Source: Leisingera sp. ANG59
GTDB lineage: Bacteria > Pseudomonadota > Alphaproteobacteria > Rhodobacterales > Rhodobacteraceae
Direction of reading: 5' to 3'
DNA length: 64,000 nt
Assembly (NCBI RefSeq): GCF_013317235.1
Contig: NZ_WLCM01000010.1
Span: forward strand, 1-64,000
The notes below the pieces were generated by a model that saw only the letters and a program-made list of their open reading frames with translations, was not told where the DNA came from and did no database searches. This document shows, piece after piece, positions 48,880 through 52,256 of the stretch (the first letter of the stretch is position 1; each line of letters starts with the position of its first letter). Both the position numbers and the translations under genes were made by a program.

Positions 48880-49752
48880 TTACAAGTTCTGGAGCGCTGC
48901 GGTGAGTGATGCCAGAACTTCAGCCTGCCGCTTGGATTTTCCCAGGCTGGCGGGCCAGGTCATCCAGTAGCCGTCGATGGTGGCCAGCTCCGGAGCCGCA
49001 ACACATTCGAGCTGCCCGGTCTGCAACAGGCTGGATGCCAAAGCCCTGGAACCCAGAACCACCCCAATGCCCAGCCGCGCCGCCCGCAGCGCGTGCCCCA
49101 TGGAATCGACGGAGACCGGCCCCATCTCCGGCTCGCCTTCGCCGGTCACACGTGCCCATTCGGACCAGCCCGGCCGCTCGCCGCGCAGCTCGATCGCCGG
49201 AAGGCTGCGCCAGGCTTTCGCATGTTCCGGTGCCGTCATCGGCTGCAGAACCTCATTGGCCAGCAGAACACCTTCACGCCGGTCCCAAACACCGCGCCCG
49301 TAGCGGATATGCAAAGCCCGGTCGGCAGCCTCAAAGTCCTGCCGCTTGGGCACGGTTTCCGTGACAATCCGCATGTCAGGATAGTTTTCAGAAAACACAG
49401 TAAGCCGCGGCAGCAGCAGCATTTCCAGATGGGACGGCTGCGCGGCAATACGCAGCTCCCTGACGCTGTGTCCGAACAGATTCTCAGTTCCCTGCTCAAG
49501 GGCGCGCAGGGAATCATGCACCAGCGGCAAATAGCTTTCACCGTCCACTGTCAGCGAAACGCCGCGGGCCGAACGGATGAACAATTGCCGCCCGAGCCAG
49601 GATTCCAGGTTGCGGATCCGCTGGCTTACGGCAGCCTGCGTTGCGCCGAATTCCTCTGCAGCAGCAGTAAAGCTGCCGTGGCGGCCTGCGGCCTCAAACA
49701 CCTTCAGCCAGTCCAGAGGCGGCAATCCCTGCCTAGTCACTTTCTTCGGCAT
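48880..49752 (-). CDS. LysR-family regulator divergent from tmpA
   Basis: Protein of 290 aa, GcvA-like: HTH at residues 12-70 (LDWLKVFEAAGRHGSFTAAA, EEFGATQAAVSQRIRNLESWLG) and an effector domain from about 95. Its ATG is 100 bp from tmpA on the opposite strand, the standard LysR layout, so it probably senses the phosphonate or betaine and controls the tmp operon. A T-N11-A box abuts its start codon. Confidence 0.88.
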   Translation of the reverse strand: MPKKVTRQGLPPLDWLKVFEAAGRHGSFTAAAEEFGATQAAVSQRIRNLESWLGRQLFIRSARGVSLTVDGESYLPLVHDSLRALEQGTENLFGHSVRELRIAAQPSHLEMLLLPRLTVFSENYPDMRIVTETVPKRQDFEAADRALHIRYGRGVWDRREGVLLANEVLQPMTAPEHAKAWRSLPAIELRGERPGWSEWARVTGEGEPEMGPVSVDSMGHALRAARLGIGVVLGSRALASSLLQTGQLECVAAPELATIDGYWMTWPASLGKSKRQAEVLASLTAALQNL

Positions 49753-49764
49753 TAGAAAACCTAA
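49752..49764. promoter_or_regulatory. LysR-type box TTAG-N5-CTAA between the regulator and tmpA
   Basis: 13-bp dyad with the T-N11-A pattern of LysR sites, starting at the first base of the regulator's ATG. No Pho box was seen in the whole 49753-49851 gap. Confidence 0.45.
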
Positions 49765-49851
49765 CTCTCAAACCCAAATTTCCGTCGTTCTCTTGATGGC
49801 TCAGCAGCGGTAGCAAGGCAAGAAAGAACCAGGCCAACCGGAGTGACCCTT

Positions 49852-50985
49852 ATGCCCCGTTCCGTATCCGCCGACGCATCCGGCAGCTTTCTGACCCTGA
49901 CCTTCGAAGACGGCAGCGAAAGCCGCTTCCATGCGATCTGGCTGCGTGACAACGCGCTGGATCCCGAAACCCGTTCCCCCGGCAATGGCCAGCGGCTGAT
50001 CACCATCGGCGACATTCCGGTGGACACCAAAATCAGCACCGCGCTGGTGGAAGACGGATCTTTGACCGTCACATTCGCCCCGGAAGGCAAAACCGTTAGC
50101 TTTCCCGGCGCATGGTTGAGGGATAACGCTTATGACATTGAACAGGCTTCGCAATTCGGCCGCGTGGCCCCGGGGATCGACACTTGGAGCAGTAGTCAGC
50201 CCGCACCGGCCTTCGACTGGAACGAGGTGATATCGAGCCCTGAGGTCAAACGCGACTGGCTGGACGCCATTGCCCGGCTCGGCTTTGCCAAACTGGTGAA
50301 CGGCCCGGTCAAGGAGGGCGCGCTGGTCGACTGCGCCGAAATGTTCGGCTTTATCCGCGAGACCAACTACGGCAAGTTTTTTGAAGTCCGCACCGAGGTG
50401 AATCCGACCAACCTAGCTTACACCGGTCTAGGGCTGCAGGCGCACACTGACAACCCCTACCGCGACCCGGTGCCCTCCTTGCAGATTCTCTATTGCCTGG
50501 AGAACTCCGCTGAGGGCGGCGAAAGCATTGTGGTGGACGGTTTCCGCGCAGCCGAACGTCTGCGTGACGAGAACCCGGAAGGCTTTGCGCTGCTGGCCGG
50601 CTACTCGGCTCGGTTTGAATACAAGGGCTCCGACGGTGTGCACCTGCGCTCGCGCCGCCCGATGATCGAACTTTCCCCCGACGGGGAGATGATCGGCATT
50701 CGGTTCAACAACCGCTCCTCCGCCCCATTTGTCGACATTCCATTTGACAAGATGGAGGACTATTACGCCGCTTACCGCCGGCTAGGTGAATTCATCGATG
50801 ATCCGGACATGGGCGTCTCCTTCAAGCTGGAACCGGGAGAGAGCTTCATCGTCGACAACACCCGCGTGATGCATGCGCGTCTCGGGTATTCGGGGTCCGG
50901 CTCGCGCTGGCTGCAGGGCTGCTACGCCGACAAGGACGGTCTGCTTTCGACCCTCAACGTGCTGAATGCGCAGCTGGAGGGCTGA
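49852..50985 (+). CDS. tmpA: 2-(trimethylammonio)ethylphosphonate dioxygenase TmpA
   Basis: Fe(II)/2-oxoglutarate oxygenase of 377 aa of the gamma-butyrobetaine hydroxylase family. TmpA of Leisingera caerulea hydroxylates 2-(trimethylammonio)ethylphosphonate at C1 to the (R)-1-hydroxy compound. Assignment rests on the family, the coupled TmpB-type HD gene and a LysR neighbour. Iron ligands are His198 and Asp200 ([11 protein letters not shown]) and His341 ([12 protein letters not shown]); Arg352 fits the 2-oxoglutarate contact. The N-terminal DUF971-like domain ([16 protein letters not shown]) has no Cys, so the zinc site of BBOX1-type enzymes is missing. The start has GGAG 8 nt upstream; a GTG 3 codons earlier is less likely. 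An ordinary betaine hydroxylase is the alternative. Confidence 0.85.
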
Positions 50986-50988
50986 GCG

Positions 50989-51594
50989 ATGAGCAAGCCA
51001 GACGTCAGCCAGCTGAACCGGGACAATATCGTAGACTTCATTGGTGGCATCTTTGACCGCCGCGGCGATGAGGAATACCTGGGCGAGCCGGTCACCATGG
51101 CCGAGCACATGCTGCAGGGCGCCACCATCGCCGAGGCGAACGGCCAGCCGGAAGAGATCATCGTGGGGGCGCTCCTCCACGATATCGGCCATTTCACCAG
51201 CGAGTTCGGCACTTTCTCCATGGACGACACCGAGGACCGCTATCACGAGGAAGCCGGAGCCGAAGTTCTGGAACAGTTTTTCCCGTCGGTGATCACCGAT
51301 TGCGTCCGTTACCATGTGGCCGCCAAGCGCTATCTTTGCGCCACCAAGCCGGAGTATTTCAACCGTTTATCAGAGGCTTCGATCCATTCCCTGAACCTGC
51401 AGGGCGGGCCGATGAATGCGGAGGAAGTGGCCGAGTTCAAGAAGAACCCGAACCTCAAGCAGATTATCGCGGTGCGCTATCTGGATGAGGCTGGCAAACG
51501 CGACGACATGGACACTCCGGATTACTGGCACTTTGCGCCGATGGTCCAGCGGATGGTGGACAAGCACATGGGAACGGGAGGTTCCGCAAAATGA
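50989..51594 (+). CDS. tmpB: (R)-1-hydroxy-2-(trimethylammonio)ethylphosphonate oxygenase TmpB (HD domain)
   Basis: HD-domain mixed-valent di-iron oxygenase of 201 aa, homologous to PhnZ. In the known pathway it cleaves the C-P bond of the TmpA product to give glycine betaine and phosphate. Expected di-iron ligands are all present: His40, His64-Asp65 (GALLHDIGHF), His86 (EDRYHEEAG), His109 (VRYHVAAKR) and Asp166 (VRYLDEAG). Tyr30 and Glu33 (EEYLGEPVTMAEH) match the Y-x2-E pair of PhnZ. Begins 3 bp after tmpA; the next gene overlaps its stop (ATGA). Confidence 0.88.
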   Translation: MSKPDVSQLNRDNIVDFIGGIFDRRGDEEYLGEPVTMAEHMLQGATIAEANGQPEEIIVGALLHDIGHFTSEFGTFSMDDTEDRYHEEAGAEVLEQFFPSVITDCVRYHVAAKRYLCATKPEYFNRLSEASIHSLNLQGGPMNAEEVAEFKKNPNLKQIIAVRYLDEAGKRDDMDTPDYWHFAPMVQRMVDKHMGTGGSAK

Positions 51595-52256
51595 GCGCGC
51601 CCGAGTATATCTTTGAGGCCAGCACCAAACCCTCGCTGCCCTGGCATGAGGTTCCGCTGATCCGGGCCACCGAGGAAAGCGTCAAAGGCTATGGCTGCCT
51701 GGTGGACGATCCGGAAAACTTCGAGATCGAAATCGTGCAATGGCCCGCGCAAGGCTGGCGGCCGATTGACGACGGCACCGGCGACGAGGCCGGCTGGGTC
51801 GAAGGCACCTTCCGCGGTGGCTGGCTTGGCGATGTGCTCTATGGCGAGAACGAAGCGGTCAACGGCAATTATGTTCTGGGCTGGTCCACTGACCCGCAGC
51901 AGGCGAAGATTGAAGCGCAAACAGCACCGCGGGACCAGGTGCTGTTGTGGCACATGAACTACCATCCCGACGGCGGTCAGCTGTTCTACCCGCTGGACAA
52001 CAAGCCATTCATAATTCCGGCCGCTCTCCCCGGTGATGATCTAACACCGGAAAAAGTTGTCGCGTTCTGGTGCGATGGCTCCAAGGGTCTCTATATCCAC
52101 CCGAACATCTGGCACGAGGGTATCTTCCCTGTGGAGGACAGCCAGCGCTTCCTCGACCGCCAAGGCAAGGTGCATGCAAGGGTCAGCTGTGATGTCGGCA
52201 AGGAATTCGGCGTCTACCTGTCCTGCCCGCTGCGCGAAGACAAGATCCGCAGCTGA
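51591..52256 (+). CDS. Ureidoglycolate-lyase (AllA)-family cupin protein in the tmp operon
   Basis: Protein of 221 aa of the AllA family: a beta-barrel core with LLWHMNYHPDGGQLFYPLDNKPFIIP and VAFWCDGSKGLYIHPNIWHEGIFPV, corresponding to the D(G)xQGxxYxxGxWH part of ureidoglycolate lyase. Longer than E. coli AllA (160 aa) owing to an N-terminal region (residues 1-75). Coupled to tmpB by an ATGA overlap; a terminator follows. No purine-degradation genes are nearby, so a role with the phosphonate or its products is more likely, but none is known to me. Confidence 0.75.
   Translation: MSAPEYIFEASTKPSLPWHEVPLIRATEESVKGYGCLVDDPENFEIEIVQWPAQGWRPIDDGTGDEAGWVEGTFRGGWLGDVLYGENEAVNGNYVLGWSTDPQQAKIEAQTAPRDQVLLWHMNYHPDGGQLFYPLDNKPFIIPAALPGDDLTPEKVVAFWCDGSKGLYIHPNIWHEGIFPVEDSQRFLDRQGKVHARVSCDVGKEFGVYLSCPLREDKIRS

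Follow-up and report, generated by a model that had tools for sequence, protein, structure and literature searches.

A conserved third gene, coding for an AllA-fold cupin, in the tmpA-tmpB phosphonate operon of Leisingera sp. ANG59

In the sea, methylated aminophosphonates may form a hidden source of both phosphorus and betaine, for which the literature covered here offers a single dedicated route, that of the TmpA/TmpB pair. Passages on the L. caerulea enzymes describe TmpA as converting 2-(trimethylammonio)ethylphosphonate (TMAEP) to (R)-1-hydroxy-TMAEP (OH-TMAEP), which TmpB breaks down to glycine betaine and phosphate (PMC10574752; PMC8177086). The PhnY*/PhnZ pair treats 2-aminoethylphosphonate (2-AEP) in a similar way, with a 2-oxoglutarate (2OG) oxygenase that hydroxylates C1 and an HD di-iron oxygenase that cuts the C-P bond (passages of PMC8177086), but the amine of its substrate is not trimethylated. 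In PbfA clusters, (S)-1-hydroxy-2-aminoethylphosphonate (S-HAEP) is described as needing the racemase PbfF (passages of PMC12366243), and passages of PMC8154272 report that phnZ and pbfA do not share a cluster. Here we describe a tmp locus in Leisingera sp. ANG59, found in the first 64,000 nucleotides of contig NZ_WLCM01000010.1 (the window; contig C2 of a genome of 5.33 Mb). The tmpA and tmpB genes are known and had been correctly identified, while a gene overlapping the end of tmpB, here ORF3, is a real and conserved third gene that is not mentioned in the literature covered. ORF3, which recurs beside such oxygenases in many bacteria, probably belongs to phosphonate breakdown without having been recognised there.

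The tmp operon and its first two enzymes

The features of the locus are as follows.
49852 to 50985, plus strand: tmpA, Fe(II)/2OG oxygenase of 377 amino acids, identified by its match to 6npb, model NF049936 and its iron ligands.
50989 to 51594, plus strand: tmpB, di-iron HD protein of 201 amino acids, identified by its match to 6npa, model NF049941 and its metal and YxxE residues.
51591 to 52256, plus strand: ORF3, AllA-fold cupin of 221 amino acids, identified by PF04115, an AlphaFold2 model, a conserved overlap and co-occurrence.
48880 to 49752, minus strand: LysR-type regulator of 290 amino acids, with the Pfam domains HTH_1 and LysR_substrate.
49752 to 49764, no strand assigned: TTAG-N5-CTAA inverted repeat of the T-N11-A form, a candidate LysR box, overlapping the LysR start codon.

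The original prediction, made from the letters of the window, described a complete tmpA-tmpB operon with a divergent LysR regulator, and the three genes that it named all lie where it placed them. It also gave the spacing of the pair correctly, as tmpA ends at 50985 and tmpB begins at 50989, leaving 3 bp. Both genes of the proposed operon stand, but its completeness does not, since the third gene lies inside the range described and was passed over. The start of ORF3 and the stop of tmpB share 4 bp (ATGA), and the operon comprises three genes, tmpA-tmpB-ORF3. For tmpA, the preferred start is the ATG at 49852, preceded by GGAG at 49840-49843, rather than the listed GTG at 49843.

Among solved structures searched with phmmer, TmpA is closest to 6npb (E 4e-235) and distant from human-type BBOX1 (E 1e-51), while TmpB is closest to 6npa (E 4e-126, 95% identity to the crystallised protein) and distant from PhnZ (E 7e-30). 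Both proteins also exceed the cut-offs of their NCBIfam equivalog models, with 593.1 bits against 400 for TmpA (NF049936) and 365.5 bits against 300 for TmpB (NF049941). The Fe(II) HxD...H triad of TmpA is complete (H198, D200, H341), as are the di-iron ligands of TmpB (H40, H64-D65, H86, H109, D166), whose YxxE loop is kept as Y30 and E33; the H...HD...H...H...D motif and the Y30/E33 numbering match those given in passages of PMC8177086. These residues had been read correctly in the original prediction, and the comparison with the L. caerulea pair, BBOX1 and PhnZ that it proposed bears out the identity it assigned. The window proteins are almost certainly orthologues of the L. caerulea pair (6npa, 6npb-d), with which they share the metal ligands and the YxxE loop, and by orthology they would catalyze the same two reactions. 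That TmpA is instead a true gamma-butyrobetaine hydroxylase, and that the HD gene codes for a phosphohydrolase unrelated to it, can practically be discounted, because although TmpA passes the gamma-butyrobetaine dioxygenase model TIGR02409 (432.6 bits, cut-off 414.75), it does so 160 bits below its score on the TmpA equivalog, BBOX1 is far more distant than 6npb, and the partner gene codes for a TmpB nearly identical to 6npa.

Homologues in a 2024 plasmid collection carry names such as HD domain-containing protein, TauD/TfdA family dioxygenase and gamma-butyrobetaine dioxygenase; that TmpA also passes the TIGR02409 cut-off may account for its earlier misnaming. To this extent the claim that both proteins are routinely misannotated holds, but not with current NCBIfam models. 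The further expectation that automated annotation of this genome would miss the pathway fails, as NCBIfam release 20 (June 2026) has both equivalogs; this is judged from the models and not from the genome's own annotation. ORF3 is likely to be named ureidoglycolate lyase from its Pfam match.

The pair itself is common: of the 390 genomes sampled from the order, 82 (counting the window) have TmpB over its cut-off, and tmpA lies directly upstream of tmpB in 79 of 82 other tmpB loci. These 82 loci, used throughout, are stretches of up to 16.6 kb from genomes besides the window, 81 with TmpB over the cut-off and one, G378, at 298 bits. The window genome also contains the C-P lyase gene phnJ (G000:C23:18607-19416) and the AEP transaminase gene phnW (G000:C12:135509-136573); with tmpAB included, its phosphonate routes probably number three or more.

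Association of ORF3 with phosphonate oxygenases

An ORF3 match adjoins tmpB in 21 of the 82 other loci, and overlaps it by 4 bp in 20 of the 21; start codons were picked by a script as those nearest to where the window would place them, a choice that may favour the 4-bp value. The exception is a locus (L065, genome G329) in which ORF3 is disrupted. Within Leisingera, TmpB is found in all 21 genomes searched and a full ORF3 lies directly 3′ of tmpB in 14 of them, window included; of the others, L357 and L361 match in part and five have no match in the 1.5 kb examined. One of the 14, G792, codes for a TmpB 100% identical to 6npa and an ORF3 89% identical to that of the window, in the same three-gene order, and by inference is L. 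caerulea itself or a strain almost identical to it. The characterised tmp operon, called a two-gene operon in passages of PMC10574752, would therefore also have the third gene.

Relatives of ORF3 in named genomes were taken as the best 80 of 158 loci, a set biased to close relatives, of which the closest are Leisingera. In 65 of these 80, tmpB is on the same stretch, while among the 15 without an adjoining tmpB two (L214, L222) are contig starts at which linkage is not readable; several loci are contigs of metagenome-assembled genomes (MAGs). The tmpB-linked relatives include two Rhizobiaceae MAGs (L199, L207) and Marinobacterium nitratireducens (L204), which we take to be a gammaproteobacterium. 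In a Hyphomicrobiales MAG (L211) the gene order is ORF3-tmpA-tmpB. Four loci, all from MAGs (L186, L192, L195, L220), keep tmpB-ORF3 but no intact tmpA: the gene is absent from the spot where it normally adjoins tmpB, a profile search of these genomes finds no TmpA over the cut-off, and L192 (G406) retains only a short tmpA remnant with stops. The coordinates of L195 are those of G184 in the order sample, a genome rated 100% complete. Two other genomes, G251 and G378, likewise keep tmpB with no TmpA over the cut-off. Genomes with tmpB but without TmpA may live on ready-made hydroxyphosphonate.

The ratio of non-synonymous to synonymous substitution rates (dN/dS) for ORF3, window against 12 relatives, is 0.04-0.24 in the 11 of 12 comparisons that were computable, although dS is near-saturated in many, and these values argue for a protein under selection. 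Disrupted, internally deleted or partial copies occur in six loci: L065 (G329), L230 (G251), L232 (G150), L292 (G441), L357 and L361. These copies suggest that ORF3 has been lost repeatedly.

Co-occurrence was counted in an order sample of 390 genomes and a class sample of 385, both including the window, after a loose first search pass in which genes may be missed. A strong ORF3 match is one of more than 130 bits in the order and more than 100 bits in the class, where an HD oxygenase is counted from 100 bits upward. In the order sample, TmpB is over its cut-off in 29/29 genomes with strong ORF3 and in 53/361 others (p 2e-22 by Fisher test, which takes no account of phylogeny or genome size). 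The same holds in the seven genomes where ORF3 lies away from tmpB (7/7, p 2e-6), counting the copies with stops in G251 and with an internal deletion in G150. Across the class, a PhnZ/TmpB-type HD oxygenase occurs in 21/23 ORF3 genomes against 66/362 (p 6e-13, or 2e-12 without the window). Measured by TmpB over the cut-off the class figures are 7/23 and 8/362 (p 5e-6), and with TmpB in only seven of the 23 the partner of ORF3 in the wider class is mostly PhnZ-like. Relatives of ORF3 are also found in genomes with Phn-HD-type genes of the TIGR03276 clade. In control genomes, whose sole match is weak and of the AllA type, TmpB occurs in 15/138 cases (order) and an HD oxygenase in 6/21 (class). 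One of these six, G441, aligns with ORF3 at positions 3-55 and 176-217 and probably represents an ORF3 with a deletion rather than an AllA; it is nevertheless counted in the control, which works against our reading.

We reject a chance neighbourhood, given the conserved overlap, the recurring linkage to tmpB and the co-occurrence. From the overlap and the co-occurrence it is likely that ORF3 is a dedicated but facultative component of oxidative phosphonate catabolism, and not a ureidoglycolate lyase of purine breakdown. The core route does not need it, as 53 of 82 TmpB genomes in the order are without it.

A second tmp architecture is found in 13 of the 82 loci (L046, L058, L063, L067, L076, L079, L081-L085, L087, L090), where tmpB is followed on its own strand by a gene of the enolase superfamily whose match begins no more than about 330 bp from that to tmpB. 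The one copy scanned is galactonate-dehydratase-like, under the cut-off. An alcohol dehydrogenase gene lies upstream on the same strand in all 13, and a Tet-like major facilitator superfamily (MFS) gene is found in 12, once on the other strand. ORF3 is present in 0/13 of these genomes against 29/70 others (p 0.003). This fits two unrelated genes, ORF3 and the enolase-superfamily gene, filling one slot; lineage could explain the pattern too.

Fold, residues and possible functions of ORF3

Pfam finds a single domain in ORF3, PF04115, at residues 122-188 (46.5 bits, cut-off 23). AlphaFold2 models the protein with a predicted local distance difference test score (pLDDT) of 91.5 from a 41-row alignment that includes AllA rows, and of 35.5 from 16 close sequences only. 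The top five folds for this protein in Foldseek are all AllA-type (E 2.5e-10 for 2bdr to 8e-8), and the TM-scores against five AllA chains, by target length, are 0.66-0.73, as for a shared fold. No match at E <=0.001 was found in a viral structure library.

Comparison of 33 ORF3-family rows with eight AllA-like rows shows both what is retained from AllA (PF04115; 1xsq, 1yqc, 2bdr) and what is changed. The AllA positions H125, P126, G128, Q130, F132, W174 and H175 are kept in 33/33 ORF3 rows. Within the E-x-H-P-x-G-x-Q motif, however, the glutamate found in 8/8 AllA rows is Asn123 in 33/33 ORF3 rows. ORF3 also has a 33-residue insertion (residues 70-102) with invariant F74, G80, N87, A89, V90, Y94, G97 and P102, and is further invariant at R57, H195 and E205; identity to AllA in the fold alignment is 14-20%, and the genomic context is phosphonate rather than purine breakdown. 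With the Glu-to-Asn change and an insertion so rich in invariant residues, AllA chemistry cannot be assumed. A weaker fold match is to DUF4867 (SftX, SqvD; 9gyy, 9gyz), likewise an AllA-like cupin coded by an unexplained extra gene, in this case of sulfonate catabolism, according to passages of PMC11968277. It differs from ORF3 in having 8% identity, a place in sulfosugar pathways and a 2His-2Glu metal site. The metal ligands in the DUF4867 structure are a Glu-x-His pair and a His further along (passages of PMC11968277), to which the aligned ORF3 columns may correspond.

The most likely point of action for ORF3, at about even odds, is the 1-hydroxyphosphonate used by TmpB and PhnZ. Two points favour this step: ORF3 follows the HD oxygenases and stays with tmpB where tmpA has been lost, and an alpha-hydroxyphosphonate resembles the alpha-hydroxy acid of AllA. 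Our best single guess at the reaction, tentative and rather unlikely to be right in itself, is that ORF3 is a metal-dependent isomerase of (S)- to (R)-1-hydroxyphosphonate. In such a scheme TmpA would hydroxylate TMAEP to the (R)-1-hydroxy compound, TmpB would cleave this to glycine betaine and phosphate, and ORF3 would turn the (S)-1-hydroxyphosphonate, presumably unusable by an R-specific oxygenase, into the (R)-form. With PbfF as precedent, and with phnZ and pbfA reported to share no cluster, it is a reasonable guess, and no more, that clusters of the oxygenase type have an isomerase of their own. PbfF is itself an accessory gene of alphaproteobacterial phosphonate clusters that rescues the S-enantiomer (passages of PMC12366243). 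It differs in being an NAD-dependent PF02826 protein tied to PbfA, whereas ORF3, a cupin, goes with HD oxygenases; the folds are unlike, and ORF3 has no PF02826 match (PF04115 only in Pfam, cupins only among the folds) and does not belong to the PbfF family. If ORF3 is such an isomerase, it would do in clusters of the oxygenase type what PbfF does in those of the PbfA type. The boldest version of this proposal is equally doubtful: ORF3 would found a new C-P enzyme family, an AllA-fold, Glu-to-Asn cupin that isomerises 1-hydroxyphosphonates for R-specific TmpB and PhnZ, was overlooked in the characterised Leisingera operon, and is replaced by the enolase-superfamily gene in 13 operons without ORF3.

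Several observations weigh against these readings. For the isomerase, TmpA is described as R-specific (passages of PMC10574752), which would leave a racemase only S-substrate of other origin; AllA itself is a lyase and not an isomerase; and the match to the AllA fold is loose when scaled by the length of the query (TM 0.48-0.53). For the phosphonate role in general, the Fisher tests are blind to phylogeny and genome size, and the 53 of 82 TmpB genomes without ORF3 have already been noted. Two of the 23 class genomes with ORF3, G574 and G632 (70% complete), have no HD oxygenase. Of the 15 named genomes without tmpB beside ORF3, two of which (L191, L194) share coordinates with order-sample genomes, five lack TmpB over the cut-off; the other ten have it, and the five divide into two with PhnZ-like matches of 200-207 bits and three with no PhnZ-like match. 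Several unlinked ORF3 copies adjoin purL, an aspartokinase-like gene or an isoleucyl-type tRNA synthetase gene. A relative 56% identical to ORF3 on a Paraburkholderia largidicola plasmid (L381, AP028202.1), annotated as hypothetical protein, adjoins an MFS transporter, and none of the 16 features that an incomplete gene table lists within 9 kb is a phosphonate gene; the family may have other roles. Taking these points together with the linkage, we regard the three-gene operon reading as a whole, ORF3 included, as reasonably probable.

Other functions can be proposed on the same evidence. ORF3 may salvage or clear around the oxygenase, lysing or hydrolysing a phosphonate side product of the alpha-oxo or hemiaminal type, or else a derivative from which the pool of hydroxyphosphonate is fed. 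This is unlikely but a serious contender, being nearer to the elimination chemistry of AllA, a nickel-dependent lyase (passages of PMC3793230) whose fold ORF3 shares and whose H125, Q130 and H175 it keeps in every row, and agreeing with its facultative presence; the invariant Glu-to-Asn change and the insertion tell against it, and the cited literature passages describe no such side product. Distinctly less probable is that ORF3 handles iron or another metal for the HD oxygenase, or stabilises it as a partner, without being an enzyme of the route. ORF3 does track the HD oxygenase rather than TmpA, and DUF4867, to which it is matched through 9gyz, is reported to bind Fe/Zn (passages of PMC11968277), but most TmpB genomes of the order manage without ORF3 and the characterised TmpA/TmpB pair is reported to be sufficient (passages of PMC10574752 and PMC8177086). 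A ureidoglycolate lyase of purine breakdown placed here by chance is very improbable, and we reject the AllA identity: against the PF04115 match stand a best score of 44.2 bits on the NCBIfam AllA models listed (cut-off 230), a separate AllA in the window genome (G000:C51:14444, 188 bits), the replaced glutamate and the absence of a TmpB excess in the AllA-only control.

The word 'ureidoglycolate' does not occur in the main text of PMC10574752, PMC10590968, PMC12366243, PMC9381506, PMC11203657 or PMC8154272, nor 'cupin' in PMC10590968, PMC8154272, PMC12366243 or PMC10574752. In some of the papers that use both 'ureidoglycolate' and 'phosphonate', the passages covered make no link between the two, a scope that does not extend to Rajakovich 2019. 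If ORF3 belongs to the tmp route, then the known route is incomplete. A single assay of ORF3 could uncover a new step in marine phosphonate use, as relatives of the gene come after PhnZ-type oxygenases and, in one case, after phnW.

Other contexts of ORF3, the regulator and neighbouring genes

The ORF3 copy next to phnW (L339, G567 of the class sample) begins 7 bp after a phnW scoring 511 bits (cut-off 296), with genes for a phosphonoacetaldehyde dehydrogenase (785 bits, cut-off 636) and PhnA (466, cut-off 408) farther on and a divergent Phn-HD gene whose 202 bits fall slightly short of the cut-off of 214.6. Genes in these contexts were called with a codon-based caller, since longest-ORF calls gave antisense artefacts. 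In three other loci (L325, L328, L338) the divergent LysR beside ORF3 best fits phn_lysR, the aminoethylphosphonate LysR model, at 261-272 bits, under the cut-off of 341. A PF02826 gene of the 2-hydroxyacid dehydrogenase type lies right after ORF3 in two loci (L210:5992-7605, L215:1565-3342). It was rejected as PbfF, its best model being GhrA, under the cut-off. In five loci (L194, L198, L226, L232, L176) ORF3, internally deleted in L232, is downstream of a gene for 816-837 amino acids belonging to one BLAST cluster. The L194 member is of the FAD/GcvT demethylase type and has as a neighbour a GbdR-like AraC regulator, under the cut-off, so that a link to betaine or methylamine catabolism is possible.

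The divergent LysR regulator of the window is confirmed by its two Pfam domains. Its best NCBIfam model is GcvA, far under the cut-off, which gives it no specific name. The gene is separated from tmpA by 99 bp, and a divergent LysR homologue is found upstream of tmpA in 61 of the 82 other tmpB loci. T-N11-A is the shape of a LysR box, and the TTAG-N5-CTAA repeat is unchanged in 10/10 aligned Leisingera regions. The regulator probably controls tmpA-tmpB-ORF3.

Just upstream of the LysR gene is a gene for a small PilZ-domain protein (Pfam PilZ; 48516-48848), and just downstream of the operon, on the minus strand at 52323-58889, are what we take from their translations to be SUF iron-sulphur cluster genes.

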